Assembly (NCBI GenBank): GCA_937922785.1
Contig: CALAJQ010000006.1
Span: 1-64,000 of the forward strand
Source: an uncultured Acidimicrobiales bacterium
GTDB lineage: Bacteria > Actinomycetota > Acidimicrobiia > Acidimicrobiales > SZUA-35
Direction: 5' to 3'
DNA: 64,000 nucleotides
Below the pieces are notes generated by a model. That model saw nothing but the letters and a program-made list of their open reading frames with translations, searched no databases and was not told the origin of the DNA. This document shows, piece by piece, positions 3,820 to 22,675 of the stretch (its first letter is position 1; each line of letters begins with the position of its first letter). A program made the position numbers and the translations under genes.

Positions 3820-5067
3820 ATGGCCGCCACTGACTCAAATAGTTCACGCTTCAGCGCGTCCCTTACGTCCTTGCAGATTCCTGAGTACCGGTCGCTTTGG
3901 TGGGCTGGGGTGTTCTCGTTTATGTCGGTCCAGGGTCAGTTTGTTCTGCGAGGACTGCTTGCTTGGGAACTGACCGAACGTGAAGGCGCGCTTGGTCTTG
4001 TGTACTTGGTCTTCGGCTTGTCGATGCTGGTCGGAACCCCCTTCGGTGGCGTTGTTGCTGATCGCTTCGCGAAACGCACGATCCTTGTGCTCACCCAAAC
4101 AATGATCATGTTGGCGGCTTATGGAATGGCCGTCGTGGTATTGGCTGACGTGGTGGAATTCTGGATGCTCTTGGTGGCTTCGGCCACTCAAGGCATTGCG
4201 TTTGCCTTCTATGGCCCGGCCCGGGTTGCGATGGCTTCTGAGCTGGTAGGGCGTGATCAGCTGGGAAATGCAATCACTCTTTCGCTGCTCAGTATGAATG
4301 GCACGCGAGTATTCGCACCGGCTCTTGCTGGGGTATTGGCCGGTTGGGCCCTAGTCGGAATCGGCGGCGCCTACGTATTGTCTGGCGCAATGTCAACGAT
4401 TGCGTTGTTCAAGCTTTGGCGGCTCCCGCACCGGCCAGGCGTAAATCAATCTAAGAAGAACCCTTTCAGCGAGATCGCCGCAGGCGTCCGTTACGTGAAT
4501 TCCCAGCCTCAATTGCGCCGGGTCGTTGTGTCTTCTTTTTTCGTGATCATGTTCGGATTCAACTACGTTGCTTTCATTCCAGCGCTCGTTGAAGGCGTCT
4601 TTGGTCTTAGTGATGCATGGGTTGGATTCGTGAGTTCGGCGAGTGCCATTGGGGCCGTGGCTGTTTCGTTGCCCCTGGCGGCCAAAGCAGACGGTCCCAA
4701 TGCGTTAATGATCATGATTGGATCTGGGCTGGGGTTCGGGGCAACAGTGATGCTGTTGGGCATCGCCCCGACAGTGTTCTTAGCGTTTTTGGTGGTTGTC
4801 CTAATTGGGGGCTGCACAACGGCCTTCCAATCACTGTCAAACACCCTTGCCCTGACGTCGGCTGATGAGGCGATGCAAGGTCGGGTTCAGTCTCTGATGC
4901 AGCTTTCATTCGCTGGCTTCGGAATCGCAGCTGCTCCCTTGGGCGCCCTGGCCGAGGTGATTGGCCTGAGGCCGGCTTTGGTAATCATGGGAGCGGTCGC
5001 CTTCGGGGCTACTGCACTGTTCGCAGTGCTTGACCGAGCCGACCGCTCTGAGCCAGCAATGGTCTGA
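3820..5067 (+). CDS. MFS transporter, enterobactin-exporter (EntS)-like
   Basis: A 415-residue major facilitator with about twelve hydrophobic segments. The loop after TM2 carries GGVVADRFAKR, the usual MFS motif A form (G-x3-D-R-x-x-R/K), and the overall pattern fits the MFS_3/EntS branch of drug or siderophore exporters. The start is ATG 3820; the N-terminus is short and soluble (about 25 residues) before TM1. It stands alone between the ABC importer and groES. The substrate cannot be told from sequence. Confidence 0.8.
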   Translation: MAATDSNSSRFSASLTSLQIPEYRSLWWAGVFSFMSVQGQFVLRGLLAWELTEREGALGLVYLVFGLSMLVGTPFGGVVADRFAKRTILVLTQTMIMLAAYGMAVVVLADVVEFWMLLVASATQGIAFAFYGPARVAMASELVGRDQLGNAITLSLLSMNGTRVFAPALAGVLAGWALVGIGGAYVLSGAMSTIALFKLWRLPHRPGVNQSKKNPFSEIAAGVRYVNSQPQLRRVVVSSFFVIMFGFNYVAFIPALVEGVFGLSDAWVGFVSSASAIGAVAVSLPLAAKADGPNALMIMIGSGLGFGATVMLLGIAPTVFLAFLVVVLIGGCTTAFQSLSNTLALTSADEAMQGRVQSLMQLSFAGFGIAAAPLGALAEVIGLRPALVIMGAVAFGATALFAVLDRADRSEPAMV

Positions 5068-5112
5068 AAGTGGCCCTTTTCATGTTGGCACCCGGAGCCT
5101 GAGGCTTTAGTA

Positions 5113-5139
5113 TTGGCACTCGACCTTGGAGAGTGCCAA
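5113..5139 (+). promoter_or_regulatory. CIRCE operator (HrcA site) upstream of groES
   Basis: A perfect 9-bp inverted repeat, TTGGCACTC, then nine bases, then GAGTGCCAA. It closely matches the CIRCE consensus TTAGCACTC-N9-GAGTGCTAA. It lies 66 bases before the groES start, where HrcA repressors bind to silence chaperonin genes until heat shock. hrcA itself is not in the window. Confidence 0.93.
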
Positions 5140-5204
5140 CGCTCGTTGGTGCCAAACAAGGCAGTTGAGAAGAAGAAAAATCAGGCGCTGAGGAGGCGCG
5201 ATAT

Positions 5205-7128
<1,924 letters not shown>

Positions 7129-7169
7129 AGAAGCGACAGCTTCTTTACTTGCATCGCAAGTATCTGCTC

Positions 7170-7201
7170 AGAGCCGCTGCCCTTGGCAGCGGCTCTTTGC
7201 G
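7170..7201 (+). terminator. Rho-independent terminator after groEL
   Basis: A perfect 12-bp stem, AGAGCCGCTGCC (7170-7181) with GGCAGCGGCTCT (7185-7196), closed by a CTT loop and followed by TTGCGTTTTC. It starts 41 bases after the groEL stop and should separate groESL from the YegP-like gene. Confidence 0.88.
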
Positions 7202-7247
7202 TTTTCAAACTAAGTTGTTCGCGGACGACAATTAGGAGCAACTAGAT

Positions 7248-7577
7248 ATGGGCAAGTTTGTTTTGAACGCAGCTAAGGGCGGCAAGTTCAGATGGAACCT
7301 TCAGGCTGGAAACGGCCAGAACATCCTCACCTCTGAGACCTACAACACTAAGAAGGCAGCCTTAAACGGTGCAGCGTCAGTTGCCAAGAATTGTGGCAAC
7401 GACAAGTGCTTTGATCGCAAGGTAGCGAAGAACGGCAAGCCCTACTTCAACATGAAGTCAACCAACGGCCAGATCATTGGCTCCAGCCAGATGTATGCCA
7501 ACAAGACCAACATGGAAAACGGCATAGCGTCAGTAAAAAAGAACGCCCCAACCGCCCCCATCGACGACCGCTGCTAA
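7248..7577 (+). CDS. YegP-like protein with two DUF1508 repeats
   Basis: A 109-residue cytoplasmic protein made of two similar halves, each with the pattern G-K-F/Y-x-W/F-N-x-x-x-x-N-G-Q-x-I-x-x-S-x-x-Y followed by a lysine-rich helix (about residues 1-48 and 52-100). This is the UPF0339/DUF1508 fold of E. coli YegP, whose role is unknown. GGAG (7233-7236) and the ATG at 7248 are well spaced. It is convergent with the helicase gene, eight bases away. The N-terminal half starts directly at GKFVLN. Confidence 0.85.
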   Translation: MGKFVLNAAKGGKFRWNLQAGNGQNILTSETYNTKKAALNGAASVAKNCGNDKCFDRKVAKNGKPYFNMKSTNGQIIGSSQMYANKTNMENGIASVKKNAPTAPIDDRC

Positions 7578-7584
7578 ACGGGCA

Positions 7585-9621
7585 CTAGTCCCAGAGGCCG
7601 GCGAGCATGTTGTCTACTTCGTGAGTCAGGTTGATTGTTTGATTGGGGGCCGACAGCGGGGACTGTTCGTTGGTACCGGTCGTGACTTCGTTGCAGAGGT
7701 CGCGGCCAACTTCAATGAACCGACTTAGCTGGGCATAGACGTGCCGGTCATCGGTGGCGAACCGGTTCACGTGGAAGCGCATTGGGAAGCTGACGGTCAA
7801 CTCATCCTTGGCGCGAGTGAGCGCCACGTAGGTCAGGCGTAGTTCCTCGGCCAGGCCTTCAGCATCTCCCAGGGCCATGTCCGAAGGCAGGTTGCCGTCG
7901 GCGGCGTGCAGAAGGTACACATTGCGCCACTCCATGCCTTTGGCAGAGTGGATCGTAGACAACGTCAGCCAGTCATCGTCGAGGTAAGGCTCTTGTGCGA
8001 GGTCGCTGGTCTTGCCGGGTGGATCGAGCGTGACCTCGGCGAGAAATCGAGAACGGTTCGAATACGCGCTGGCGGTGGCTCCAAGCTGGCCAAGGTCTGC
8101 AAGACGGGGAAGCGGGTTGTCATAGTTGTTGGGGAACGTCAGCTCGCAGAATCCAAGCAGTCGGTCAATCTGTTCGGCTGGAGCCTGGATTTCTCGACAG
8201 TCGCTCAAGGCAGCACGCAACTCATCAGCCTGGGTTTTGGCCGGCGACGGAAACCGTCCGAGGCCATCAAGGAGGTGATTCAGAGCGTCTGAGGTTTCAT
8301 CAGCAATTCCAAGCTCGGCTTCTAGTCTCCTCGAGGTGGCTGGACCCACCCCCTCCATCGATTTGAGCACTCGGTGCCATGCGAGCGCATCGTCAGGGTT
8401 GTCCAGAATTCGCAATAGGGACATCAGATCTTTGACGTGGGCTGTTTCGAGATATTTGAGCCCTCCGTACTTCACATACGGGATGTCTCTCCTGTGCAGC
8501 TCGAGTTCGAGGCCCTCTGAGTGATGGCCCGCTCTGAACAACACTGCTTGATCTCGCAAATCCATGCCGCGTTCCCTGGCGTCCAGGATTGAATCTGCTA
8601 CCAGTTCAGACTGAGCGCGCTCATCCCAACACGTGGCCAAGGTGGGGCGAGTTCCTTCCGGCTTGTTACCCCAAAGCGTCTTCACAAATGGACGGTCATC
8701 ACTAGGCAATCCGTCAGATAGCACACGGTTAGCAAAGGCAAGTATCGGAGACGTTGAGCGGTAGTTCTGTTCGAGAGTGACAACCTCTGCGCCGGGGAAG
8801 TGTTCGGTAAATGCCCACATGTTGGCCACCGTGGCCGAACGGAACCCGTAGATCGCTTGTGCGTCATCGCCCACGGCGCATAGATCGGTGTCGGGCCGGC
8901 ACATGCCGCGGATGATGTCGTTCTGAATTGGATTGGTGTCTTGATACTCGTCGATGAGGATGTGGTCGAAGTCATTTCGGAGATGCTCTCCAACCGCAGA
9001 TGCGGTTATGCCGCGCCAAAACAGCAACAGGTCGTCGAAGTCAAGAACGCTGTTGGATCGCTTGTGAGCGGTGTAGGAGTTGAAGATCGTCTTAAGGTCT
9101 TCAGCGTGATCAGCGCACCACGGGTAATCGACATCAAGAACATCGCTCAGGTGGGCTTGGCTGTTGACAAGTCTGCTGTAGATGCCGGCCACAGTCTCAG
9201 CTCTAGGGAATCGCTTGCCTCGCTCGCCCATGCCCTCGGCCGTTCTAACCATGCCAAACAGATCCTTGGAGTCAGCGGCATCAAGAACAGTGAAGTTCGC
9301 CGATAGACCGGCAGCAGCTGAATAGTGGCGCAAGAGTCGGTTAGCGACGGCGTGAAAAGTGCCGGCAACAACGTCGCCGTGGCGGCGTCCATTGGACTCT
9401 TCTGCGGCGCGAGCTTTGGCTCGGGCCACCATTTCTGCAGCTGCCCGTCTGGTGAAGGTAAGCAAGAGGATTCTGGATGGATCAGCCCCATCAGCCAGAA
9501 TTCGAGCCACTCGAGCCGCCAGTGTGCGTGTTTTGCCGGTACCGGCTCCGGCAACTATCAGCAGCGGAGATCCCTGGTGATCAACGGCAGCCGCTTGCTG
9601 TGGGTTCAGATCATCGAACAT
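7585..9621 (-). CDS. UvrD/PcrA-type superfamily 1 DNA helicase
   Basis: ATP-dependent 3'-5' DNA helicase of the UvrD/Rep family, 678 residues. Motifs in order: the Q motif (LNPQQAAAV), Walker A AGAGTGKT (24-31), motif II LIDEYQDTN, motif III GDDAQAIYGFR, motif IV QNYRS, motif V TIHSAKGMEW and motif VI YVALTRAKDEL. It is complete, though shorter than the 730-780 residues of UvrD/PcrA, and the C-terminal tail after motif VI is brief. The family acts in repair and in removing stalled replication or transcription complexes. The exact orthology (UvrD1, UvrD2 or PcrA) is uncertain. Confidence 0.93.
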   Translation of the reverse strand: MFDDLNPQQAAAVDHQGSPLLIVAGAGTGKTRTLAARVARILADGADPSRILLLTFTRRAAAEMVARAKARAAEESNGRRHGDVVAGTFHAVANRLLRHYSAAAGLSANFTVLDAADSKDLFGMVRTAEGMGERGKRFPRAETVAGIYSRLVNSQAHLSDVLDVDYPWCADHAEDLKTIFNSYTAHKRSNSVLDFDDLLLFWRGITASAVGEHLRNDFDHILIDEYQDTNPIQNDIIRGMCRPDTDLCAVGDDAQAIYGFRSATVANMWAFTEHFPGAEVVTLEQNYRSTSPILAFANRVLSDGLPSDDRPFVKTLWGNKPEGTRPTLATCWDERAQSELVADSILDARERGMDLRDQAVLFRAGHHSEGLELELHRRDIPYVKYGGLKYLETAHVKDLMSLLRILDNPDDALAWHRVLKSMEGVGPATSRRLEAELGIADETSDALNHLLDGLGRFPSPAKTQADELRAALSDCREIQAPAEQIDRLLGFCELTFPNNYDNPLPRLADLGQLGATASAYSNRSRFLAEVTLDPPGKTSDLAQEPYLDDDWLTLSTIHSAKGMEWRNVYLLHAADGNLPSDMALGDAEGLAEELRLTYVALTRAKDELTVSFPMRFHVNRFATDDRHVYAQLSRFIEVGRDLCNEVTTGTNEQSPLSAPNQTINLTHEVDNMLAGLWD

Positions 9622-9682: not shown

Positions 9683-10030
9683 GTGTCAATCCTTTTCACA
9701 AACTACAAGCAGCTATTGGTTGCTATTTTTGTGATGGTAATTTCTCTCTCCAGCCTTGCTGGATGTGGGTCCGATTCGACCGCGATCGGCATTGAGCCTT
9801 CGCTTGGCACCCCCCAGACTTTGTATCGGGACTCGTCGCCGGTCGTGACTGCAGAACTCGATGTGCTGGGAACTGTGCAGGTTCACAACGAACTAGAGAC
9901 TGACTCCGAGCTAGCAATCGAACCCGTCAGTGACAGCAGCGGTCTGCCACTAATTTGGTTCGGGGTTGTGGGTCTGGGATTGGCTGCGGTTGCGATCACA
10001 TTGCTGGCCGTGGTTCGCGAAGAGGCCTAG
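9683..10030 (+). CDS. Small lipoprotein with C-terminal membrane anchor, unknown function
   Basis: A 115-residue protein with a GTG start. It has a lipoprotein signal peptide ending in the lipobox LAGC (Cys about residue 28), a short polar middle of about 60 residues rich in T, E, D and S, and a C-terminal hydrophobic segment (about residues 89-110, PLIWFGVVGLGLAAVAITLLA) with a short charged tail. So it is probably tethered at both ends to the membrane. I do not recognise it. Its stop overlaps that of the convergent OsmC gene by four bases. Confidence 0.6.
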   Translation: MSILFTNYKQLLVAIFVMVISLSSLAGCGSDSTAIGIEPSLGTPQTLYRDSSPVVTAELDVLGTVQVHNELETDSELAIEPVSDSSGLPLIWFGVVGLGLAAVAITLLAVVREEA

Positions 10031-10455
10031 CCAGCGAACACAGTCTCAGAGAAAACGATGCCCTGCTCGAGGGTCTTGTGGACCGGGCAGCGAACCGCGA
10101 TTTCTTCAAGTCGTTTGCGAGTTGCTTCGTCAAAGTCGCCATCGATGAAGATTCTTGACGTGACCTGATTGATCATTCCGGAGTGGCTGTCATCACATTC
10201 TGCACAGTCGTCCACGTGAACTTTGTCGTACCGGTATTCAACTGACACAGATGAAAGGTCGATGTTCTTGCGTTTGGCGTACAGTGCCAAAGTGATGCTG
10301 GTGCAAGATGCGAGAGCTCCCAGAAGGTAGTCGTAGGGGTTTGGGCCAGTGTTGTCGCCGCCCAGGTCAACGGGTTCGTCCGCTCGCCAAACATGGGTGC
10401 CGTTTGTGATGTCGACCTGATAGTTCTCTTTGAGCTCTGCGGTGATTGAAGTCAT
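10027..10455 (-). CDS. OsmC family protein (thiol peroxidase-like)
   Basis: A 142-residue OsmC/Ohr-fold protein. The family reduces organic hydroperoxides with two cysteines. Visible are GGDNTGPNPYDYLLGALASCTSITL, with the first cysteine in ASCTSI, and VRCPVHKTL with the second, in the family's usual places. An internal CAECDD stretch is extra. The ATG at 10455 lies two bases after the stop of the cyclase-B2 gene upstream, so the two are probably co-transcribed. It may be a passenger of the lasso operon or a housekeeping gene; its role there is unknown. Confidence 0.85.
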   Translation of the reverse strand: MTSITAELKENYQVDITNGTHVWRADEPVDLGGDNTGPNPYDYLLGALASCTSITLALYAKRKNIDLSSVSVEYRYDKVHVDDCAECDDSHSGMINQVTSRIFIDGDFDEATRKRLEEIAVRCPVHKTLEQGIVFSETVFAG

Positions 10456-10457
10456 AG

Positions 10458-12629
10458 CTATAGAACACCACGTCCGGGCCTCGGCATTCCGAATCGGTCT
10501 CGTGGATCGGAGGTGAAGGTGTTCGTGACCGTATAGCGGCGGTAGTCCCGCTGTCCGTTGACGACCGTTTGGCCGACCGCAACCCAGGAATGGGCGGCCA
10601 TCGATTCGGCGCTGCTCGGCGCGTTCAGCCTCACTCCCAGTTTCAACGTCGCTTGAATCCCGCGTCGCCGTAAAAGATGTTGTGTTGCTATTGCCTGCGG
10701 TAAACACAGCGGCCGGTGAGGTAATCGTCTTGACACGCGCTCCACAGCCTGGCCGATCTGCGCTGCAGTTGTCATCGATTCATGATCCGGCGAAGTGCTG
10801 CCGGCGGCCTGGGGTTCGCCAAGCGTTTTTGCAATCGCTGAGAACCTCACAAATCGGACGGCTAAATCGGCGATGAGAACGGCAAAGGTCGCTTGGATGA
10901 GAATTCGCCCGTTTGGTTTGGCCCTAACGTCGAGTGCTCCTTGTTTGGTCACCGAAGACTCAACGTCAGCCTTGGCAATCCCAGTGCATTCAGAATAGGG
11001 CTGCCCCAGCGGGTCATGAACGAACTGCAGGGCAGCTAAGAAGCTTGAGGCGTCTGAACTGGCCTGGTCAATCTGTAGTCGGCTTTGACCCAGGTACCGG
11101 GAGAACATTGCATTGTCGATCAGTGGTATCCGCTCTGGAAGAACCGGAATGTCTAGACCCACTTCTCGGGCTGTCTCGAGTAGGTCCCATGTGTGGCGAG
11201 ATCGCCAAAGATCGGCCTTGTCGTTGTTTAGACGAATTTGTTCGGGCACAACGCCCGACAGCGCATCCCTCATCAGTGTGCGATCTAGAAAGAGATTGTT
11301 GGGCATTGATAAAGCAAACTCGATGAGCCGCCGGTCCAGAAGCGGGTAGGCGTACTGAACGCCGAACCTTGATCCGTGTATTGACCAGGAGTCAGTTCGC
11401 TCGACAATGTGGCCCCGTTCCAGCCTGTCGATCATCCGCTGTCGTGAGGTCTTGGGAGAGTCCCTCCTGGCAACACGTCGCCTTAGCTTGGCTAGGTGGG
11501 CACCTAAGCCATGTCGCAGTCGGGGTGCTCGCAACGAAACAAAGTCATCACCTCCCCAACCAGATGCGATGACCGTGACCCCTTGTTCTTGGGCCCGCCG
11601 CATCACTGGTAGTTCAGTCATCAGTGTCGAGGTAGCGGGCGATGTAACCGGATCAATCGCAAGGAACTCTTCCACGTCTTGGGTGGAGGTGGGAAGGTAG
11701 CTTGGCGTCACCGTGAATGACTCAGCGGTGAGTTGCACTAAAGAACTGTCTATGTCGCGTTGTGCTCCTGGTCTTGGCGGCGGTTGCCAGGCGTAGGTGG
11801 GGGTGGATCGGGGCGAGGCTGTCTGTGTTCCGAAGGCCGTCTGTGTTCCGAAGGCGATGATCGCTGTTGAGTCGAGGCCACCTGACATGTGACAGCCGAT
11901 CCTAGGGTGGATATCGAACACCTCAGCTATGACCGATTTCAATAGCAGCCGAAGTTCGTTGGCCGCCTGAGAACTGTTGATGTCGGATCGCTCGTTGATG
12001 TCGCCTGGGCTCCAGTAGCGACTCACTGACACACCGTCGGGAGCCACTTCTAACAGGTGTGCTGGAGGCAACGGTTTGATGTTGGAGTGCAGGGTCGCCC
12101 AATTGCTTAGGCAGCCGCCAGTCAGGTGTTCTCGAACCGCTCCCAGGTTCAAGCTCTGGTTGGCGGCCGGGGTGAGCGCCTCCACTGTGGTCGCGAAGTG
12201 AACCTCGTTTGGTCTCATCGAATAGAACAGCGGGCGCGTACCCGCCTGGTCTCGGGCCAGAATCAACTTCTGGCGCGTGCGATCGATGATCACAAGAGCC
12301 CAATTGCCCGATAGCTCAGCCAAGAACTCGGTGTCGAACCGGTCGTATAGGTCGGCAACGGTGTGAGCATTGTTGCCAAGGTCGCAGGGCCGTACTCCAA
12401 TTTTGTGAGCCAGGCTGTCGCTATCGCCTAAATGGCCGAACACAGTGGTCTCCAGCCGGGCGGTTTTGTGGACTGTCAGGTGTTGGTGTGCCTTAAGCTC
12501 TTTGTCCACCTGGGAACAGATCTGATCCACTCCGCCGTCGGCGCCGAACTTTACGTAGCCACTTAGAGCCGCCGAACAAGGCCTTGTCGGTGAATTTGTG
12601 AATGTGGCGGTGGCGTGTGAGTTGGTCAT
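10458..12629 (-). CDS. Lasso peptide cyclase (asparagine-synthetase-like) fused to B2 leader peptidase
   Basis: A predicted two-enzyme fusion of 723 residues. Residues about 18-200 resemble the class II amidotransferase domain but lack the N-terminal Cys. The synthetase domain has the PP-loop SGGLDS (249-254) and GWGGDD, as in lasso macrolactam synthetases that adenylate the ring Asp/Glu. From about residue 600 there is a lasso B2 (transglutaminase-fold) domain with the candidate catalytic Cys in CLPQAIA (642) and His in AHSWV (680); the third triad residue is not obvious. B2 removes the leader. I chose ATG 12629, 17 residues before AALSGYVKFG, the usual start of the domain; there is no clear ribosome site. 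Cyclase and B2 are normally separate genes. An 18-bp tandem duplication follows the PP-loop. OsmC follows two bases downstream. Confidence 0.85.
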   Translation of the reverse strand: MTNSHATATFTNSPTRPCSAALSGYVKFGADGGVDQICSQVDKELKAHQHLTVHKTARLETTVFGHLGDSDSLAHKIGVRPCDLGNNAHTVADLYDRFDTEFLAELSGNWALVIIDRTRQKLILARDQAGTRPLFYSMRPNEVHFATTVEALTPAANQSLNLGAVREHLTGGCLSNWATLHSNIKPLPPAHLLEVAPDGVSVSRYWSPGDINERSDINSSQAANELRLLLKSVIAEVFDIHPRIGCHMSGGLDSTAIIAFGTQTAFGTQTASPRSTPTYAWQPPPRPGAQRDIDSSLVQLTAESFTVTPSYLPTSTQDVEEFLAIDPVTSPATSTLMTELPVMRRAQEQGVTVIASGWGGDDFVSLRAPRLRHGLGAHLAKLRRRVARRDSPKTSRQRMIDRLERGHIVERTDSWSIHGSRFGVQYAYPLLDRRLIEFALSMPNNLFLDRTLMRDALSGVVPEQIRLNNDKADLWRSRHTWDLLETAREVGLDIPVLPERIPLIDNAMFSRYLGQSRLQIDQASSDASSFLAALQFVHDPLGQPYSECTGIAKADVESSVTKQGALDVRAKPNGRILIQATFAVLIADLAVRFVRFSAIAKTLGEPQAAGSTSPDHESMTTAAQIGQAVERVSRRLPHRPLCLPQAIATQHLLRRRGIQATLKLGVRLNAPSSAESMAAHSWVAVGQTVVNGQRDYRRYTVTNTFTSDPRDRFGMPRPGRGVL
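11821..11856. repeat. 18-bp in-frame tandem duplication inside the cyclase gene
   Basis: Two adjacent copies of GTCTGTGTTCCGAAGGCC (11821-11838) and GTCTGTGTTCCGAAGGCG (11839-11856), differing only at the last base. In the protein this doubles the six residues AFGTQT directly after the PP-loop helix (residues about 259-270). It looks like a recent slippage event and keeps the frame. Confidence 0.9.
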
Positions 12630-12710
12630 GTAGATCGGCGCAAATAGTCGCAATAGGTTGAAGAAGGTAGATGAAGATTTCTGCAATATGGTTCCATCGG
12701 CCCATACGCC

Positions 12711-12740
12711 TCTATATAAAGGAAATTTGTTCTCAATCAA
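12711..12740 (-). promoter_or_regulatory. Putative promoter for the cyclase-B2 gene
   Basis: On the minus strand a -35-like TTGATT (12740-12735) and a -10-like TATAGA (12716-12711) are 18 bases apart in an AT-rich stretch. The expected transcript would start near 12704 and have a leader of about 75 bases before ATG 12629. The same 160-base gap must also carry the promoter for the precursor gene on the plus strand, which I could not place with confidence. Confidence 0.4.
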
Positions 12741-12789
12741 TTGCAGATGTGGTCGATAGAAGAACATCAACGCACAAGCAGGAGTCGCA

Positions 12790-12945
12790 ATGACTGCGGA
12801 AATTACCAACTCAAAATCGCAACACAAGCAGGTATGGATAACGCCCGCGTTGTCTGAGATCGATGTCGCAAGGCGCACCCAAGGGGCGCTTGTTGACAGC
12901 ACAGTCGAGGACTTGTTGAACAACGACAGCAATCTGCTTTCATAA
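12790..12945 (+). CDS. Lasso peptide precursor
   Basis: A 51-residue peptide beginning MTAEITNSKSQHKQVW. AGGAG (12780-12784) lies five bases before the ATG. The leader carries W16-I-T-P19-A-L21 and T30-Q-G32, matching the leader pattern Y/WxxPxL...T-x-G that the RRE protein and leader peptidase recognise, with Thr at -2. Cleavage after Q31 would give the core GALVDSTVEDLLNNDSNLLS. G1 and E9 can form a nine-residue macrolactam ring, leaving an 11-residue acidic tail that ends in Ser. The C-terminal Ser fits the HPr-kinase-like protein nearby, because paeninodin-type peptides are phosphorylated there. It is divergent from the cyclase gene and convergent with B1. D10 is an unlikely alternative ring acceptor. 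Confidence 0.83.
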   Translation: MTAEITNSKSQHKQVWITPALSEIDVARRTQGALVDSTVEDLLNNDSNLLS

Positions 12946-13025
12946 CAAGTCTCAGAATCGCTTCAGGTGCTCGGTGGTCTTTTGGGCCGCCGGGTACTGG
13001 CGCGTCTAGGGGCTTGTAACTGTGC

Positions 13026-13358
13026 TTATGGGCGGAGTGCAAACGTGCGTTTCTTCACCAGTCCCTTGGCAAGAAGGGTTTCGACGAAGTGTGTGATCTC
13101 GTCGTGGCACTGTTTGGCGTCAATCTCATAGGTCGCCACCAAGGTCTGGACGATCTCTGAAACTCGCTTGGGTTCAGCAAGTTCTTTCCAAATCACTGCA
13201 CCAACGTTGTCCAGGCCAAAGTACGTCGAGAGGTCTATGTCGGTCACAACAACGGCGTATTCGCCAACGTCGGTGGCCAATATGGTGGGGGACTGGACAA
13301 AATGGGGCTCCATCTCATCGGCGGAGGCGTACTCGTTAATGGGCGCTGGATCATGCAT
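13026..13358 (-). CDS. PqqD-like RRE protein (lasso B1)
   Basis: A 110-residue protein of the PqqD/RRE type, a winged-helix fold that binds leader peptides and hands them to maturation enzymes. The strand pattern VVVTDIDLSTYFGLDNVGAVIWKELAEP and the helical C-terminus (VSEIVQTLVATYEID ... ITHFVETLLAKGLV) match PqqD-family members found in lasso clusters. It should deliver the precursor's WxxP leader to the B2 domain. It lies downstream of the kinase gene on the same strand, and its 3' end faces the precursor gene 80 bases away. Confidence 0.88.
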   Translation of the reverse strand: MHDPAPINEYASADEMEPHFVQSPTILATDVGEYAVVVTDIDLSTYFGLDNVGAVIWKELAEPKRVSEIVQTLVATYEIDAKQCHDEITHFVETLLAKGLVKKRTFALRP

Positions 13359-13439
13359 GGCTAGGTCTCAAAGGACTAGTAGGAGTATGGATCAGCAAGG
13401 ATCAACCTTGACTTCATATCCCCAGTCGGTCCGGGAGCG

Positions 13440-14414
13440 CTATTTGTGAATTGCCAAGGCCAATTCTCTTGTAAGGAACTCGCCGAGTTCATTTGGTGGG
13501 CACCCGGTCTCGGGCCTCTGAAGCCGGTACACGGGAACTGAAGTAGCCAGCTCTGACACTCGGGTAAACCACTGCGGCACGATGGTGCTGGCAAGCTCGT
13601 TGCGAAAGTGGTTCTCGGCTACAAACGCAGTTGCGGAAACATCGTCCATTCGTGACATTGCTGGCCGTGTGACCCCACCAGGGGAGACATCGGTGGTTTG
13701 CAAACAGATAATTGCGTTGAGCAATACCGGGGGAGCTTCCGACAGAGCCGCGTCGTCGGTGAACATGTACTTGTCGACATCCTCGCTAACTCGGTGAGCT
13801 TTAGCTGGATCGAAGTTGAAGTCACGGGCGGAGTGGGCCCACAGCCGGAACGAGCCAGGGCCTCGGTGAAGCTGGTGGTGGCCATCTCGGTCGGTTGTAA
13901 CGGCGCCCAAGTTGTCACAGATCCGGGCGCTTCCGCTGCTAGCCAAAGCGGTAACCAGGCTGGACTTGCCGGCCCCATTCTCGCCGCAAATCGCGATCGC
14001 TCCAAGGGTCGGGTGGTCGAATGCAGCTGCGTGGAGCACTAGAAAGTCCCGTTGCATAAGAATGGTGGCCACCGGTATGCCGGCCAATACCGTCAGCAAT
14101 CGCGCCGACTGGTCAGGAGCGTCGATAATGATCGAATTGCCGTCGGTCACCAAGTATCGGCCCAGGTTTGGGGCGGTTAGAAGCATTTCTGACCGATTTG
14201 CGACCCAAAGAGGCCCGACCACCGTTGGGTTGTTGAGCTCGCTGGCGACGGGCCCAAATGTGACCCGAACCTGCGGCTCGTCCTCAGTTTGGGTGAAGCC
14301 CGATATTGGGATTGGAGATTGGAAGACCGTGCTGTAGGCCTTGTAGCTCGCTTCAGGCGCCGTCACTTGACCGACACTAGTCAGTGCGGTGACTGGGTGT
14401 TGAGTGTTGAACAA
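13440..14414 (-). CDS. HPr-kinase-like lasso tailoring kinase
   Basis: A 324-residue protein with a degenerate N-terminal half and an HprK-like C-terminal half. The P-loop is GENGAGKS (144-151), preceded by VLHAAAF with a conserved His (128), as in HprK-type kinases of paeninodin clusters, which phosphorylate the C-terminal Ser of the lasso precursor. The precursor here ends in Ser, so it is the expected substrate. It probably shares a transcript with the B1 gene 81 bases downstream and is divergent from the nucleotidyltransferase. A true HPr kinase is less likely, as no HPr gene is near and the lasso neighbours are complete. Confidence 0.82.
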   Translation of the reverse strand: MFNTQHPVTALTSVGQVTAPEASYKAYSTVFQSPIPISGFTQTEDEPQVRVTFGPVASELNNPTVVGPLWVANRSEMLLTAPNLGRYLVTDGNSIIIDAPDQSARLLTVLAGIPVATILMQRDFLVLHAAAFDHPTLGAIAICGENGAGKSSLVTALASSGSARICDNLGAVTTDRDGHHQLHRGPGSFRLWAHSARDFNFDPAKAHRVSEDVDKYMFTDDAALSEAPPVLLNAIICLQTTDVSPGGVTRPAMSRMDDVSATAFVAENHFRNELASTIVPQWFTRVSELATSVPVYRLQRPETGCPPNELGEFLTRELALAIHK

Positions 14415-14533
14415 CCTATTTGTTCCAATTGGGGTGCTGGGCCAGCCAGGCCTGGCCGGTTACGATTCGCAAGCGGCCCACTTTCGGGCTCCACTGCCAC
14501 ACACCACTTCTACCCCGCTAGGGCAAGCCTTCA

Positions 14534-15709
14534 TTGTCACAGACCGAAAGTCACAGACACCCAGCAGACGAGAGCCTTCTGGTTCTGGCCCGTACCGGCT
14601 CGTTACCAGTAGAGACTGCGGTTGACGCTCACTTGCTAGATCGGTCCCGAGATCACCGAATGTCAGCGCTTGTCCATCACGCTGTTCAGGACCAAAAGCT
14701 AGCCGGTGATCCTGAGGTGCTTCGGATACTGGCTGCTGACTCTTTACGCGCCGCCAGCCGGTCAAAGATCGCCGCTGATGCTCTCCGGCAGATCGTCGAC
14801 GCCGCCGATGGTCAGTTTCAGATTGGCCTTGCCAAAGGGGTCGCATTCGACCTTTCGCTCTATGCCGGCAGGGCCGTCCGGGAATTCGCGGACTTGGACA
14901 TTTTCCTCAATCGGCAAGAGCTGTTCAGGTTTGGTGAGATCCTGCGCACACTCGGCGACGTCGAAGTGGACGTAGCGTTGGTCAACAGAATCGCTTCTTC
15001 TGGTCGAACTTATGAGCATGCGGTTCGGGTGGGGTCGATCTGGGTTGATGTGCACAACGACATCATGAACTTCGTCTTGCCAATTCGTCAGCACGACTTG
15101 TTTTGGTCCCGCTTGATTCCGATCGAGGAGATTTCTGCCAAGCCTGATCAGTGGGCTGGCAAGGTTTCGAGTGCTGGGCGAGCAACAGTTCTGCTGCTTG
15201 ACGCCGAGCTCATGGTGATCCAAGCCTTGGCGAACTACGCACGAGATCTGTTTACCGACCTTCGGCACTTGAACGACTTTCGGGTCATGTTCGAAGGTGA
15301 CATCGATTGGGACTTCGTTGCTTCCTTTGCGGAGGCGGAGGGCTGGTATGACCTCGTCGCATCAAGCCTCGACGTTGTTTGCAGTTATTTGGAGGTGCCT
15401 TCCCCGCTCCCAATTCGATCCAAATCTGCCCACATGCTGGCAACGCAGGTTCTTTGGCCCGAGCGACATCGGCTTCGAGGGAGATCCCGAATCGGTGGTG
15501 TCCGTACGGGGCAGGCGAGAGCGTCGCTACTGATCTCGGGCCGGCGGGCTGAGTTGGTTCGAGAGATCTACCGGCGAATCATTCCACCGAAGGAACTGCT
15601 CGACCTGTTGGACTATCCAGCCCCCGGACCGCGTGTGTGGAGGGTTTTGCGGTACCGCTGGAATCAGACCAAGACGCTTTCGGCAAACCGAAAGGCCCTA
15701 GCTAGATAG
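14534..15709 (+). CDS. NTP_transf_5-type nucleotidyltransferase, lasso tailoring
   Basis: A 391-residue protein of the 'uncharacterised nucleotidyltransferase' family (NTP_transf_5). The signature is present: a Gly-Lys (G99-LAK101) strand followed by REFADLDIFL with D120-L-D122 as the probable metal ligands. Such genes accompany HprK-like kinases in paeninodin/pseudomycoidin lasso clusters, where the transferase is reported to modify the phosphorylated C-terminus further. That role here is inference. The start is a TTG at 14534; an internal ATG at 14659 would cut only the variable N-terminus. Its 3' end overlaps the convergent LysM gene by 12 bases. Confidence 0.8.
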   Translation: MSQTESHRHPADESLLVLARTGSLPVETAVDAHLLDRSRDHRMSALVHHAVQDQKLAGDPEVLRILAADSLRAASRSKIAADALRQIVDAADGQFQIGLAKGVAFDLSLYAGRAVREFADLDIFLNRQELFRFGEILRTLGDVEVDVALVNRIASSGRTYEHAVRVGSIWVDVHNDIMNFVLPIRQHDLFWSRLIPIEEISAKPDQWAGKVSSAGRATVLLLDAELMVIQALANYARDLFTDLRHLNDFRVMFEGDIDWDFVASFAEAEGWYDLVASSLDVVCSYLEVPSPLPIRSKSAHMLATQVLWPERHRLRGRSRIGGVRTGQARASLLISGRRAELVREIYRRIIPPKELLDLLDYPAPGPRVWRVLRYRWNQTKTLSANRKALAR

Positions 15710-17612: not shown

Positions 17613-18281
17613 ATGCGACAATCAAAAACGCCCTCAAAGCTGACCCTGGCCCATGCCTTAATGGTGGTGGCCGGGCTCGTGACCTTTGTTTTGGTTTCGG
17701 CAGTGCTTCGAGATCGCAGCGAGACGGCGACGGTACTTGTGGCTACAGTTTCGGCGCCTGCTGGTTCTGAGGCATCGGCGCTGGGGCTCACACCATTAGA
17801 AGTGCCGGCTTCGCACGCATTATCAGAGCAATTTGTAGCGTCGGGCACGGTCAGCGGCACCGAAAGAATCGCTCGCGACGTGGTTTCAGGTCAGCCACTG
17901 CTTAAGAACGACTTGTTGGCGCCCGAGCAAAGGGTTGCGACGAGGACCTTCGCAATCGCAGTTGATGATCTTGTTTTGCGGGGCTTGGGCTTACGAGTCG
18001 CTGATCGCGTTGACCTGATAGGCCAAGACGACGAAGGCAATGTGTACTACGTCGTGACCGATGTTGCCGTTGCATCGCGTTCCCAGATTGCAACCGACTC
18101 AGGATTTGCAGCTAGCAGCGGCAGCTTCCTAACGGTGGAAGTTACTGACGCCGAGGCGTTGGCGATCTCGGCTGCTTTGCGGTCATCTCCAGTTGACGTG
18201 GTGCGATCGACGGGCGCCCAGGCAATCGACTTAGCGGCGCCGCAAGACACAGCTATGGCAGATCTGGAGGCAGGGGAGTGA
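17613..18281 (+). CDS. cpaB: Flp pilus assembly protein CpaB/RcpC-like (SAF domain)
   Basis: A 222-residue protein with one N-terminal membrane segment (about residues 13-30) and a SAF-like domain (about 40-110, VLVATVSAPAGSEAS ... ISGQPLLKNDLL pattern) followed by an RcpC-like beta region (VADRVDLIGQDDEGNVYYVVTDVAV). CpaB/RcpC proteins occur at the start of Tad operons and sit at the outer face of the membrane; their exact role is unclear. It is the first gene of a seven-gene run in which most junctions overlap by four bases. Confidence 0.78.
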   Translation: MRQSKTPSKLTLAHALMVVAGLVTFVLVSAVLRDRSETATVLVATVSAPAGSEASALGLTPLEVPASHALSEQFVASGTVSGTERIARDVVSGQPLLKNDLLAPEQRVATRTFAIAVDDLVLRGLGLRVADRVDLIGQDDEGNVYYVVTDVAVASRSQIATDSGFAASSGSFLTVEVTDAEALAISAALRSSPVDVVRSTGAQAIDLAAPQDTAMADLEAGE

Positions 18282-19546
18282 TTGTTGGCCCGATCTCGGT
18301 TGCGCTCGCCTTGTCCGGACGTGAGTGGCGCAGTTCGCTTCAGCGTCACTGTCGCGACTATGTCGCGGACATTGCTGTTCAGCTCGTTCGAGATGGCCGC
18401 CAGGCCCTTGACCCCTCCATTTCGGTCGTGGTTCTCGATGACGACACGAGCTGGCTTTCCACTCCATTCCTCAACGCTGCTCGCGAGCGCGGCATTCCAG
18501 TCATTGGTCTGTATGACCCGCTCGAGTCCGACGGTCATGGACAACGACATCTTCAACGGCTCGGGGTCGACGCTGTCCTGTCCGCTGCCATCTCAACCGA
18601 GCAGCTCCTTGAGGGAATAAGGGACCTGACTCCGAACGTGGAGACGTTTGACCGCTTCATCGAGGCAATCGAGGGCGTTGATGACCGCATTCGGCAATCG
18701 AAGCGCCAGATAGTTGCCGTAGGGGGACCGGCAGGAGCTGGTGCGACTGAGGTATCAATTGGGTTTCTGCAGACTGCTCCGGGGGCTCGGGGCATTCTGA
18801 TCGACGTTGATGAGACTCATCCCAGCATCGCAAGAAGACTCGGGCTGGCCATCCACCCTCACATCGTCACAGCGATCGAGTCACTTCGCCGCGAACGCAT
18901 CCGTCCGGATGGCACACAAAGAACCGAGCTGGAGGACTGCCTGGCCATCCCGGCGCTTAACAACTCCCTACCGTTTGATGTCATCACTGGTCTTGCGTCG
19001 CGAGATGACTGGACGTTACTGAGGGCAGATGATGTTGTTGACCTTGTCACCGAACTCACGGCCCGCTGGCCAGTTGTAGTTGCTCGAGTAGGTCCACAGC
19101 TTGAAGACCTAACTCGCTGGGCCGATCGGTACGAAGTCTCCCGAAGTGTGGTCCGCAATTCGACCCGGATCATTGGGGTTTGCGAGGCCACTTCTCTTGG
19201 CGTGCTGAGGTTCGTTGATTGGTTAGTGGACGTCGTTGGGTTGGTTGATGAGACACCGATTGACGTTGTTCTGAATCGAGTCCCCAAATCACCTGCTGCT
19301 CGTTCTGAGCTGGTTACTCAGATTCGCGAAATCGCCGGAGATCGCATCGGGGAGATCGTTTGCGTTGCCGAAGACAAGCGGGTAAAGCGAGCTTCTTGGG
19401 ATGCCAAGATCGTCACCAAGGGCCAGTTCGTGAAGAACTTGGCCAGACTTCACCAGCTTAAGACTGGATCGCCGGGCGAAGCTCAGGAGCCTCAAAGCCG
19501 TGTCTCGGATCTGGCACCCGAGTATGAGAGTGGGGCATTGCTATGA
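18278..19546 (+). CDS. tadZ: TadZ/CpaE-like ParA/MinD-family protein
   Basis: A 422-residue protein with an N-terminal receiver-like domain (about 1-125; VVVLDDDTSWL, GIPVIGLYDPLE) and a C-terminal ParA/MinD-like domain starting at IVAVGGPAGAGATEVSIGF (about residue 147). The deviant P-loop lacks the usual Lys (GAGAT instead of GKGGxGKT). TadZ proteins place the pilus machine at the cell pole and several have atypical P-loops. The start GTG overlaps the cpaB stop by four bases. Confidence 0.8.
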   Translation: MIVGPISVALALSGREWRSSLQRHCRDYVADIAVQLVRDGRQALDPSISVVVLDDDTSWLSTPFLNAARERGIPVIGLYDPLESDGHGQRHLQRLGVDAVLSAAISTEQLLEGIRDLTPNVETFDRFIEAIEGVDDRIRQSKRQIVAVGGPAGAGATEVSIGFLQTAPGARGILIDVDETHPSIARRLGLAIHPHIVTAIESLRRERIRPDGTQRTELEDCLAIPALNNSLPFDVITGLASRDDWTLLRADDVVDLVTELTARWPVVVARVGPQLEDLTRWADRYEVSRSVVRNSTRIIGVCEATSLGVLRFVDWLVDVVGLVDETPIDVVLNRVPKSPAARSELVTQIREIAGDRIGEIVCVAEDKRVKRASWDAKIVTKGQFVKNLARLHQLKTGSPGEAQEPQSRVSDLAPEYESGALL

Positions 19547-20862
19547 CCATCGTGGCCAATGGCCAAAGCCTCTCGACGCCTGATGTTTATGAGGAACTGC
19601 GCCAGCAGGCGCTCAGCGACATTCGAAACCGATCTATCAACACCGATGACTCAGCTGAAGTCCTAAGCCTGCTGAGGTTCTTAGTAAGCGGCTATCAGGC
19701 GAATGCAACTTCAGGAGGCTCTCACCGGCCCCTGCACGATCCTCCGGCAATGGTCGATCGGCTAGCCCAATCGATCTTGGCCTATGGCCCACTGACTCCC
19801 TTTCTGGACGGTTCGATTCACTATGAAGAGCTGATCATCCATGGGGGCGAGGTCAACTACATCGACGGTCGTGGCCAACTAGTCGCCTACCCCGAACCTG
19901 TCACAGAACAAGAAGTCACTCACGTTGTTCAGAAGCTGCTCGCCAGCGTTGGAGCATCGGTAGATGAGTCTCGGCCTGTGATCCAGACTCAGATTTTGGA
20001 CGGATCGGCTCGCCTCGGCGTAGTCATGCCCCCCATCGCTGACAAAATCGATGTGACAATTCGGCGCTATCTCGCGAAACGAGAGACATTCCACGAACTC
20101 ATCGGCTGGGACGCAATTAATCCTGCTGCTGCCTCTCTGCTTGCGGCCATGTTACGAACTCCAACTGGAATGATCGTCACCGGCCAGCCCGGTTCGGGCA
20201 AAACCACACTGGTCAACGCGTTACTGCGGGCCGCTCCCCAGAACATCAGACTGATCGCGTGTGAAGACACTCCAGAACTCTCAGTTGAACACCTCAACGC
20301 AGCACGTTGGAAGACACGGGTTGCCGGACCTGATGGCACCGGAGAGATCTCTTTACGGCATCTAGTTCGGATGTCGTTGGGAATGCGGCCAGACATCATC
20401 GTTGTTGGTGAGGTCCGGGGTGAAGAGGCATATGAGCTGACCCGCGCCGGAAACGCCGGTTGTGGAATGCTCTCCACAATTCACTCAAACGGCGCCCGGC
20501 AAGGACTTCAAGCCCTCGTCTCGACTGCAACAATGGCAGGCCCAAACGTTGCGGCAGACCAGGTACGGTCGGTATTCAGCTCGATTGTGGATGTGGTCGT
20601 CCACGTCGCCAAGGAGCCAGGCGCTCCCACTCACAGGCCGGCCCGCCGGCAGGTCATGGAGGTGGCGTGTATCCCACCTATGCAGGGTTCTGAAACCGAC
20701 TTTACGGTTGAACCCATATTTGTCCGTGACGACTTCGGGGCACCCCTTCAATGGACTGGCAGTCCGCTCCCATTGGATCTCGAAACCCGCATTGGCCGGG
20801 TTCTTCGGCCTCTCAAGATCACCGTCAATGACATTCTCGATGGAACGAGGGTTCTTGTATGA
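19543..20862 (+). CDS. tadA: Flp pilus assembly ATPase TadA/CpaF
   Basis: The secretion ATPase that drives Flp pilus assembly, 439 residues. Walker A is GQPGSGKTT (about residue 214). An Asp box (LIACEDTPEL), Walker B-like GMRPDIIVVGEVRGEEAYEL and a His box (GMLSTIHSNGA) follow in the order usual for the CpaF branch of VirB11-type ATPases. The N-terminal domain contains YGPLTPFLDGSIHYEELIIHGG, typical for CpaF. ATG overlaps the previous stop by four bases. Confidence 0.95.
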   Translation: MTIVANGQSLSTPDVYEELRQQALSDIRNRSINTDDSAEVLSLLRFLVSGYQANATSGGSHRPLHDPPAMVDRLAQSILAYGPLTPFLDGSIHYEELIIHGGEVNYIDGRGQLVAYPEPVTEQEVTHVVQKLLASVGASVDESRPVIQTQILDGSARLGVVMPPIADKIDVTIRRYLAKRETFHELIGWDAINPAAASLLAAMLRTPTGMIVTGQPGSGKTTLVNALLRAAPQNIRLIACEDTPELSVEHLNAARWKTRVAGPDGTGEISLRHLVRMSLGMRPDIIVVGEVRGEEAYELTRAGNAGCGMLSTIHSNGARQGLQALVSTATMAGPNVAADQVRSVFSSIVDVVVHVAKEPGAPTHRPARRQVMEVACIPPMQGSETDFTVEPIFVRDDFGAPLQWTGSPLPLDLETRIGRVLRPLKITVNDILDGTRVLV

Positions 20863-21737
20863 GGCTTCTCGCTGGTCTTTTTGCAGGATCGTTCGCCTAT
20901 CTAGCCCTCGGTTCGCTCGTCGGCATTAGTCCGGCTTGGCTCAAACGTGATCGCGGCACTCGCCGCCCGGGTGCGCGAGCCCAAGACTGGCTGAACCAGG
21001 CTGGAGCCGACGTGACGCCGATGCAGTTTGTGGTTGCTTCGGTGTCGGGAGCGGTTGTTAGCGCATTCCTTGTGTTCAGCCTTACCAAGGTTCCAGCTCT
21101 GGCCTTTGTTGCTTGCGGCCTTGCTCTGGCTGCACCACGATTGTTCTACTCAAAGCGTCGCGCTACAGCTACCGCAGAACGGCTAGACGCTTGGCCTGAC
21201 GTGATCAGAGATTTGACCGCTCACCTGCGTGCTTCGATGTCTGTGCACGCCGCGCTTTGCGAAGTGGGACGCACGGGTCCGCTTCCGCTTAGGCCCTTCT
21301 TCAACCGGTATGCGGGCTTGTCCGCAACTCTGGACCACCGCAGTTCGCTTGAAGTTGTACGAGAGGAGCTGGCGGATCCGCTAAGTGACCGGATCATCGA
21401 GGTGATTCTTGTTGCGTTTGAGCAAGGGACGTCGGTTGTTATGGACGTTCTGGACGACTTGGCCGCTTCCACTACTGCGGACCTACGCCTTACCGAACAA
21501 ATTCGCACCTCCCAGCTCGAGACAAAACTTGAGTCACGGGGAGCAGCTGTTTTGCCCTTCGCTGTGTTGGCGTTGCTTTGCAGTTCGACCGGTGGTTATC
21601 GAGAGTTTTACAGCACCCCGGCGGGCTGGGTGATCGTCATTCTTGGCGGGATCATGGCTCTGGGCGGGATGCTCGCCATCAATCGCCTGGGCGTGATTCC
21701 TAGTGAGCAAAGGATTCTTGCCGGAGGCGAGAGGTGA
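20859..21737 (+). CDS. tadB: Flp pilus inner-membrane platform protein TadB
   Basis: A 292-residue T2SF-domain membrane protein. Hydrophobic segments lie at the N-terminus, around residues 58-95, and two near the C-terminus (LPFAVLALLCSS, GWVIVILGGIMALGGML). The central cytoplasmic part (DAWPDVIRDLTAHLRASMSVHAALCEVGR) is typical for TadB. It forms the membrane platform with TadC. It is joined to both neighbours by four-base overlaps. Confidence 0.88.
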   Translation: MRLLAGLFAGSFAYLALGSLVGISPAWLKRDRGTRRPGARAQDWLNQAGADVTPMQFVVASVSGAVVSAFLVFSLTKVPALAFVACGLALAAPRLFYSKRRATATAERLDAWPDVIRDLTAHLRASMSVHAALCEVGRTGPLPLRPFFNRYAGLSATLDHRSSLEVVREELADPLSDRIIEVILVAFEQGTSVVMDVLDDLAASTTADLRLTEQIRTSQLETKLESRGAAVLPFAVLALLCSSTGGYREFYSTPAGWVIVILGGIMALGGMLAINRLGVIPSEQRILAGGER

Positions 21738-22675
21738 CCTTCCAGGTCTTCCTTGCGGCCCTGGCTGCAACTGCTCTCGCTGTTTCGGTGAGCCGGCAGT
21801 TGGTTCCACCGCGCCGGTCGCTAAATGTTCGACTGCGCCCTTACGCCGCACTATCAAGATCTCGGCTTGGTACTGGCTATGCCGACGTTTCGGTCAGTGC
21901 CATCACCCGAGTTGATGAGCGTTCGTCGTTAATGCGGGTCTTTGGACCGGTACTAGAAATAATGGCCGAGAAGCTTGGAAACGTTGTCGACGCAGCCGAT
22001 GCGGAGACCCTTTCGCTTCGCCTCCGCCAAGCTGGGTTTCGTGACGTCAGGCCCGAGCAGTATCGGATGCGTCAGTTGGTATACGCCTTGGCCGGACTGG
22101 TCATAGGAGTATTCATCGGACTTACTGTTATGAAGAGCTTTGCTGGGGTCGCCCTAATGGCATTCTGCTTCGGCTTTCCCGGCGCAACCATTCAACGGAC
22201 CCGAGTTCAGAAGGCCATCGACGTCCGGCGAGACCGGATGCGAAGTGAGGCCTACACGGTTGCCCAGTTGCTAGCTGTTCACGTTAGGACAGGTCACGGC
22301 CCAGTGGAAGCAGTGAGGTCAGTCTGTGCACTTGGGCGTGGGCCAGTTGTGGCCGAGCTAAGAGAGGCGCTGACTTGGATAAGCGGTGGCACCAGCCCTC
22401 AGCGGGCTTATGAGAAGCTGGCCGAATCTACGCCGGAACCATCGGCTAGCCGTCTGTACCGGCTGCTGTCAGCATCATCTCGCTCAGGCGGCGACATCGG
22501 CCGAGCCCTTCTGGCAATAAGCAATGACCTTCGGGCCGAACGGCGCGAAGAGCTTGCGCGCCATGCGCTCAAACGAGGTTCTGCGATGTTGATCCCGCTG
22601 ATCATCTTTATTGCCCCAGTCATGGTCCTGTTTGTGGGGGCGGCGATCCCTCATCTGATCTTTGGCGGCAATTAG
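21734..22675 (+). CDS. tadC: Flp pilus inner-membrane platform protein TadC
   Basis: A 313-residue partner of TadB. It has an N-terminal membrane segment, a pair about residues 117-150, the T2SF core (YTVAQLLAVHVRTGHGPVEAVRSV ... SRSGGDIGRALLAISNDLRAERREE) and a C-terminal membrane segment (MLIPLIIFIAPVMVLFVGAA). The start GTG overlaps tadB by four bases. Downstream, 81 AT-rich bases separate it from the pilin gene, which could allow separate or stronger expression of the pilin. Confidence 0.87.
   Translation: MTFQVFLAALAATALAVSVSRQLVPPRRSLNVRLRPYAALSRSRLGTGYADVSVSAITRVDERSSLMRVFGPVLEIMAEKLGNVVDAADAETLSLRLRQAGFRDVRPEQYRMRQLVYALAGLVIGVFIGLTVMKSFAGVALMAFCFGFPGATIQRTRVQKAIDVRRDRMRSEAYTVAQLLAVHVRTGHGPVEAVRSVCALGRGPVVAELREALTWISGGTSPQRAYEKLAESTPEPSASRLYRLLSASSRSGGDIGRALLAISNDLRAERREELARHALKRGSAMLIPLIIFIAPVMVLFVGAAIPHLIFGGN

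Follow-up and report, generated by a model that had tools for sequence, protein, structure and literature searches.

A candidate lasso peptide cassette with fused cyclase and leader protease in an uncultured Acidimicrobiales bacterium

The window, a 64-kb stretch of DNA from an uncultured Acidimicrobiales bacterium that we analysed as a whole, carries what its gene content makes a nearly certain lasso peptide cassette. The cassette covers positions 10458 to 15709 (5.25 kb), between an OsmC-like gene and a LysM gene that are neighbours in relatives. A 51-codon open reading frame (ORF) within it is highly likely to encode the precursor (A) that this five-gene cassette would turn into a lasso peptide. 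The cyclase (C) and the leader protease (B2) are read as a single protein, which appears to be an unusual and new enzyme architecture, with an assembly error at the joint as a possible source. The peptide itself is a new, ordinary member of the large and known lasso class.

The C-B2 ORF (10458-12629, minus strand) encodes 723 residues from an ATG at 12629, our choice of start. It matches the Pfam families GATase_7 (2.1e-13), Asn_synthase (4.5e-17) and Transglut_core3 (5.7e-23), and is the single Transglut_core3 match in the host genome at E<=0.001. The Asn-synthase domain, predicted to form the macrolactam, occupies residues 239-535 (11025-11915, minus strand) with SGGLDS at 249-254, and the B2 cysteine protease domain occupies residues 576-705 (10515-10904, minus strand) with Cys642, His680, and Trp682. 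For the cyclase, PF00733 and PF13537 are over their Pfam cut-offs; the lasso model NF033535 is its best NCBIfam match (4.5e-40), yet the 137.8 bits fall far below the cut-off of 525. B2 scores 88.8 bits with the lasso model NF033537, over the cut-off of 33. B1, a PqqD-type RiPP recognition element of 110 residues (13026-13358, minus strand; PqqD 5.8e-16), reaches 59 bits with PF05402, over 23.4, and 62.7 bits with the lasso-specific NF033536, below its cut-off of 80. Among PDB entries it matches 9x90, of the lasso PqqD family (4.2e-10), and TbiB1, 5v1u (3.9e-9), which we take to be a lasso B1 protein. An HprK-like kinase of 324 residues (13440-14414, minus strand; TTG start, uncertain) has a weak match to TIGR04352 (2.1e-4, 20.5 bits, far below the cut-off of 200) and no Pfam family over its cut-off. 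The last gene (14534-15709, plus strand; 391 residues) encodes a nucleotidyltransferase of family NTP_transf_5 (PF14907, 1.2e-17, 64.8 bits, over 31.2), with KG and DxD kept in 17 of 17 aligned rows; it is PsmN-like, PsmN presumably belonging to the same family. Thus C, B2, B1, and the nucleotidyltransferase are over Pfam cut-offs and B2 is over its NCBIfam cut-off as well, supporting a lasso cassette and confirming by family models (Pfam, NCBIfam) what an earlier note on this DNA had claimed, that the small gene lies inside a set of lasso maturation genes. None of the five cassette genes encodes an exporter or transporter, and a lasso cluster lacking a D gene has already been described (PMC10368454).

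The precursor ORF, MTAEITNSKSQHKQVWITPALSEIDVARRTQGALVDSTVEDLLNNDSNLLS, runs from 12790 to 12945 on the plus strand and encodes 51 residues. An AGGAG ribosome-binding site (12780-12784, plus strand) stands five bases 5' of its ATG, the good ribosome site previously claimed. The coordinates and translation claimed for the 51-codon gene are exact. The C-B2 ORF begins 160 bases away on the opposite strand; the precursor is thus divergent from C-B2, and it is convergent on B1. The 31-residue leader, MTAEITNSKSQHKQVWITPALSEIDVARRTQ (12790-12882, plus strand), has W16xxP19xL21 and T30 at -2, and the predicted core, GALVDSTVEDLLNNDSNLLS (12883-12942, plus strand), comprises G32 to S51, all as the earlier note had described. 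Isopeptide formation requires an acidic residue at positions 7-9, which E9 provides, making a G1-E9 isopeptide likely and the nine-residue ring proposed before the likeliest geometry on sequence grounds. S51 is the last residue, giving a core with a C-terminal Ser. We computed a monoisotopic mass of 2070.0117 for the core minus one water and 2149.978 with HPO3, in agreement with the 2070.0 and 2150.0 Da put forward earlier.

No described match to the precursor was found among PDB chains of at least 20 residues (phmmer, E<=10), a set that leaves shorter lasso chains outside, or in 72,556 plasmids (tblastn, E<=10), and a text search of open-licence papers with 12 letters of the core gave none. 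The suggestion that no described lasso peptide has this sequence therefore held across the PDB, plasmids and open-licence papers. An undescribed core is the usual outcome for a mined lasso cluster. A search of open-licence papers for "lasso peptide" together with "acidimicrobi" found neither term in the title or abstract of any paper listed. The host genome holds two further matches to the precursor, both weak (E 0.1 and 0.7). A search for a sigma-70-type promoter gave no match, which says little as shuffles give 0.8. The ORF is real and very probably a lasso peptide precursor. Many known lasso peptides are antibacterials or enzyme inhibitors; that this one is likewise either is, by analogy, a guess of low confidence.

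Gene content, fusion, motifs, and insertion site are read from the sequence; the chemical steps, threading, and cut site we infer. B1 would bind the leader through W-x-x-P-x-L and present it to the B2 domain, which would cut after Q31, so that Thr stands at -2. Using ATP, the C domain of this one chain would then activate Glu9 and link it to the new N-terminal Gly1, so that a nine-residue ring closes about the tail. The basic product would have a mass of 2070.01 Da and a free C-terminal Ser. In pseudomycoidin the C-terminal Ser is first phosphorylated and then glycosylated by an enzyme pair that the kinase and nucleotidyltransferase of the cassette resemble; here the phosphorylation would be doubtful, given a changed residue in the kinase.

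The fusion is the feature that sets the cassette apart. Catalytic residues are kept in both halves: SGGLDS, G357, D361, and K471 in C, and Cys, His, and Trp in B2, with the Cys and His present in 44 of 44 aligned rows. An AlphaFold model of the whole chain, made with 12 C homologues, has a mean pLDDT of 61.5. Its C part is mostly well defined over residues 50-470 and matches asparagine synthetase B, beta-lactam synthetase, and related enzymes; the B2 part is undefined in this model, for which the alignment held no B2 homologues. Modelled alone with 13 homologues, the B2 domain reached a mean pLDDT of 86.2 and had no PDB match by Foldseek at E<=0.001. A mixed alignment of C and B2 (A3) was rejected for folding because the C rows slid onto the B2 region, and A1 and A2 were used for the separate models instead. 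Two B2 alignments were too divergent and were dropped as scan profiles.

We looked for the fusion elsewhere. Lasso B2 matches at E<=0.001 occur in 17 of 247 genomes of the class, searched with PF13471 (13 over the family cut-off), 51 of 396 of the phylum (48 over), 42 of 397 of the order (33 over), and at least 134 of 293 genomes of the order to which genome G460 belongs (at least 133 over). The class, phylum, and order samples include the window's own genome, and the samples overlap, so that the distinct genomes are fewer than the sum. The fetched loci gave 43 B2 matches at 40 distinct places, and no C match was in the reading frame of any of them. Twelve candidates outside the window were examined for their long frames: 11 that, among the matches listed, were over the family cut-off with a frame of more than 600 residues (G138, G538, G460, and eight more genomes from the order that contains G460), together with G095 (541 residues). 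All 12 were rejected as fusions, since C and B2 occupy different frames; L101, L102, and L051 are among the loci where separate C and B2 frames were seen. Outside these 12 stand G194, G048, G064, and G096:C148, with frames of more than 600 residues and scores below the cut-off. Searches with the whole C-B2 protein gave matches in 18 of 39 genomes of the family, its own included, and in 79 of the 247 searched from the order; among the matches listed, those to the B2 part outside the window lay in frames of at most 366 (family) and 541 residues (order). On plasmids, 273 of the 72,556 records match, none with one place covering 80% of the query. A contig scan with the fused protein, which needs exact 8-residue stretches and is weak evidence of absence, found no relative, and a phrase search of open-licence papers, which can miss it, found no C-B2 fusion.

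Fusions within lasso clusters have been reported, namely B1-B2, B2-nucleotidyltransferase, and B-ABC transporter (PMC5067487, PMC8498205, PMC7533575). As in the window, these join maturation enzymes in one chain; none, as far as those accounts go, joins cyclase to protease. The fusilassin/fuscanodin cluster of Thermobifida fusca (A, B1, B2, C) is likewise actinobacterial with a split B (PMC13352647), but there B2 and C are separate genes, and the four genes that this source names include neither a kinase nor a nucleotidyltransferase. One-chain coupling of protease and cyclase is plausible. McjB and McjC are active only together (PMC5067487, PMC13352647), and the hand-over of the cut, pre-folded peptide from B to C is unsettled; a natural one-chain enzyme would argue for direct transfer at a fixed 1:1 ratio. 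We tentatively raise the possibility, which we hold to be rather less than even, that C-B2 is a working lasso synthetase in cis with B1 as the sole other essential protein, and that the kinase homologue, lacking phosphotransfer, has another role, such as binding the nucleotidyltransferase. If this is true, the new N-terminus would leave the protease site and directly enter that of the cyclase. A natural one-chain C-B2 would also give a simpler two-protein system (B1 and C-B2) for in vitro work.

For tailoring, the closest comparison is the pseudomycoidin (psm) cluster of Bacillus pseudomycoides, which likewise has a lasso precursor with a C-terminal Ser, maturation genes, HprK-like kinase, and nucleotidyltransferase (PMC9266682, PMC8498205). 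The window differs in having C and B2 as one protein, an Asn for a conserved Asp in the kinase, and an actinobacterial host. The paeninodin (pade) cluster of Paenibacillus dendritiformis shares the split B with a separate B1; its kinase acts on the C-terminal Ser and its protease depends on B1 (PMC5067487, PMC9266682). Unlike the window, pade has PadeB2 and PadeC as separate proteins and includes a D transporter gene, which the window cassette lacks. We aligned the window kinase and 34 sequences of related loci; 33 of the rows, the window's among them, extend over the key columns. All 33 share His128 and Lys150; at Asp167, 30 rows have Asp and 3 have Glu. One column on, 32 rows have Asp and the window alone has Asn (30 of 31 rows after removal of two repeated places), the Asn168 codon AAC standing at 13911-13913 on the minus strand. 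Pade-type lasso kinases are reported with a full His-Lys-Asp-Asp set, the importance of which has been shown by mutation (PMC9266682). On our mapping, the columns of H128, K150, D167, and N168 would correspond to this set, with the fourth residue changed and the set incomplete, suggesting that the window kinase is probably impaired. PADLOC gave two matches to the kinase, both weak (E about 0.003), over the P-loop stretch.

These observations bear on whether the cassette performs working pseudomycoidin-like tailoring, in which a core Ser would be phosphorylated and one or two hexoses added (2149.98 Da, then steps of +162.05 Da). The kinase and nucleotidyltransferase gene pair and a C-terminal Ser like that of paeninodin-type precursors argue for it, as does the activity of PsmK and PsmN (PMC9266682, PMC8498205). 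Against it, the fourth position of the His-Lys-Asp-Asp set, as we map it, is taken by Asn168, and we regard full tailoring as somewhat unlikely. Phosphorylation of the peptide by itself we rate as unlikely to moderately likely. The 2150.0 Da phosphopeptide of the earlier note stands as arithmetic; the phosphate is doubtful because the kinase carries Asn for an otherwise invariant Asp. The site of any phosphorylation is not certain either, since another lasso kinase acts on Ser3 (PMC10368454).

The cut site was considered by comparing the leader with precursors at distant loci. Genome searches found no close homologue of the cassette. A scan of 29 loci for precursor-like ORFs gave 20, of which 10, from nine loci, were kept as precursors. 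The 10 left out were two at locus L054 (rejected for a Trp at the Tyr position and a locus with no C or B2 match), one at L108 (rejected as part of the B2 gene inside which it lies), and seven judged by eye to be chance. The earlier note named the presence of a similar small gene in homologous loci as a check; at these distant loci an ORF of the same plan was picked in 9 of 29, none with a related core by eye. Under the parsing used, core positions 7-10 of the kept L048 ORF include no acidic residue. All 10 kept precursors have Tyr at the start of the motif, where the window leader has Trp, and all 10 have, by eye, a Gly four residues past the motif that is absent from the window leader. The spacer from motif to Thr is nine residues in 9 of the 10 and eight in L103, as in the window. 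With Thr at -2, the window motif lies at -16 to -11, one residue off the -17 to -12 that is usual for YxxPxL (PMC10368454).

A cut after G32 would instead leave the core ALVDSTVEDLLNNDSNLLS, with an Ala1-Glu8 ring and a mass of 2012.99 Da (2070.0117 minus one Gly residue). Such a core, starting at A33, would set the motif at the usual span and give the nine-residue spacer of 9 of the 10 kept precursors. It would also put Thr at -3, whereas Thr(-2) is found, according to PMC10368454, in all precursors reported before that study, which describes an exception with Ile(-2); moreover, a spacer of eight with Thr(-2) occurs in L103 too. We therefore consider the cut after G32 improbable, and prefer, from the sequence, a cut after Q31 with a G1-E9 linkage. 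A nine-residue ring remains the likely outcome.

The borders of the cassette can be set by comparison with relatives. At its C-B2 end it adjoins the OsmC-like gene (10027-10455, minus strand): the C-B2 stop lies two bases before the OsmC-like start codon on the same strand (10453-10460), so that read-through from the cassette may now extend into the resident OsmC-like gene. At the other end, the nucleotidyltransferase and LysM genes overlap tail to tail by 12 bases (15698-15709). The OsmC-like query gave 24 named loci of 4.2 to 18.4 kb, 21 of them from MAGs labelled Acidimicrobiales, Acidimicrobiaceae, Acidimicrobiia, or Actinomycetes and the remaining three, at 40-48% identity, from Kouleothrix, Thalassospira, and Owenweeksia. 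By this kinship the host belongs with the Acidimicrobiales. In 15 of the 24, the ends of the OsmC-like and LysM matches are separated by 40 to 1805 bp; LysM was not found in the other nine. Nine of these 15 are the same places as nine taken from family genomes, and in 4 of 15 the OsmC-like and LysM order is swapped relative to UvrD. In the window the two genes (LysM stop at 15698) are 5,242 bp apart, and the cassette fills the gap. No lasso-gene HMM match at E<=1e-5 was found in the 24 OsmC-like loci. Either the cassette was acquired at this site in the window, or the sampled relatives have lost it. Its G+C is 0.566 against 0.565 for the window, and third-position G+C is 0.62-0.65 for the five cassette genes, 0.63 for UvrD and OsmC, and 0.53-0.58 for four other neighbours; composition therefore neither shows nor excludes a foreign origin. 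A repeat search found nothing pairing the two cassette ends. Other B2 genes of the family (G255, G283) lie on contigs other than that of the OsmC gene. Past the right neighbours of the cassette, at 17613-22675, the window has by eye Tad/Flp-type pilus-like genes (CpaB-, CpaE-, TadA-, and TadB/C-like).

The absence of the cassette from the OsmC-LysM site in every sampled relative, the Asn168 of the kinase, and a gene set with no exporter would all fit a cassette in decay, its kinase without a catalytic residue and nothing made. However, the five ORFs are intact, and the catalytic residues of C, B2, and the nucleotidyltransferase are kept; a decaying cassette would surprise us. The preferred reading, a cassette that makes a lasso peptide from the 51-codon ORF, also agrees with the motif statistics. 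We used a strict pattern (Y/W/F-x-x-P-x-aliphatic, 5-14 residues, T-x, then G/A/S/C with D/E at core 8 or 9). It is found in one ORF of the 64-kb window, the precursor ORF situated between enzyme genes. In 60 order-2 Markov copies, it occurs with any start 0.32 times per 64-kb copy and with ATG and ribosome site not at all, against one in the window. A looser pattern is weak evidence: with any start it gives 8 ORFs in the window against 5.65 per Markov copy, and with ATG and ribosome site 1 against 0.2. The test is post hoc because the pattern was written after the peptide was seen. That the true substrate is encoded elsewhere and this small ORF is spurious, as its leader oddities and its divergence from the C-B2 gene might suggest, is very hard to credit for the only strict-motif ORF in 64 kb, which lies between enzyme genes with an ATG and a ribosome site.

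Several of the related loci have arrangements of their own. L055 (G087:C11:17000-30000) has matches to PqqD, HprK-like kinase, and NTP_transf_5 at 4275-6747; neither C nor B2 is matched there. In L054 (G199:C10:90000-103000), the same three families are found, with no C or B2 match in its 13 kb; its features lie at 5233-5658 (minus), 6819-7169 (minus), 7105-9318 (minus), and 8074-9300 (plus). Three tandem paralogous small peptides with W-x-RPS-x-TPLTNPDSRSD-x-PDV adjoin its tailoring genes, and the locus may be a cyclase-free peptide-tailoring system. In L128 (G687), a B2 protease domain and an HprK-like kinase match share one frame of 510 residues (1402-2931, plus strand), possibly a B2-kinase fusion. 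L110 (G383:C82:47000-61359) has two lasso-type cyclase matches, at 987-2864 and 12019-13911, together with one match each to B2, kinase, nucleotidyltransferase, and B1.
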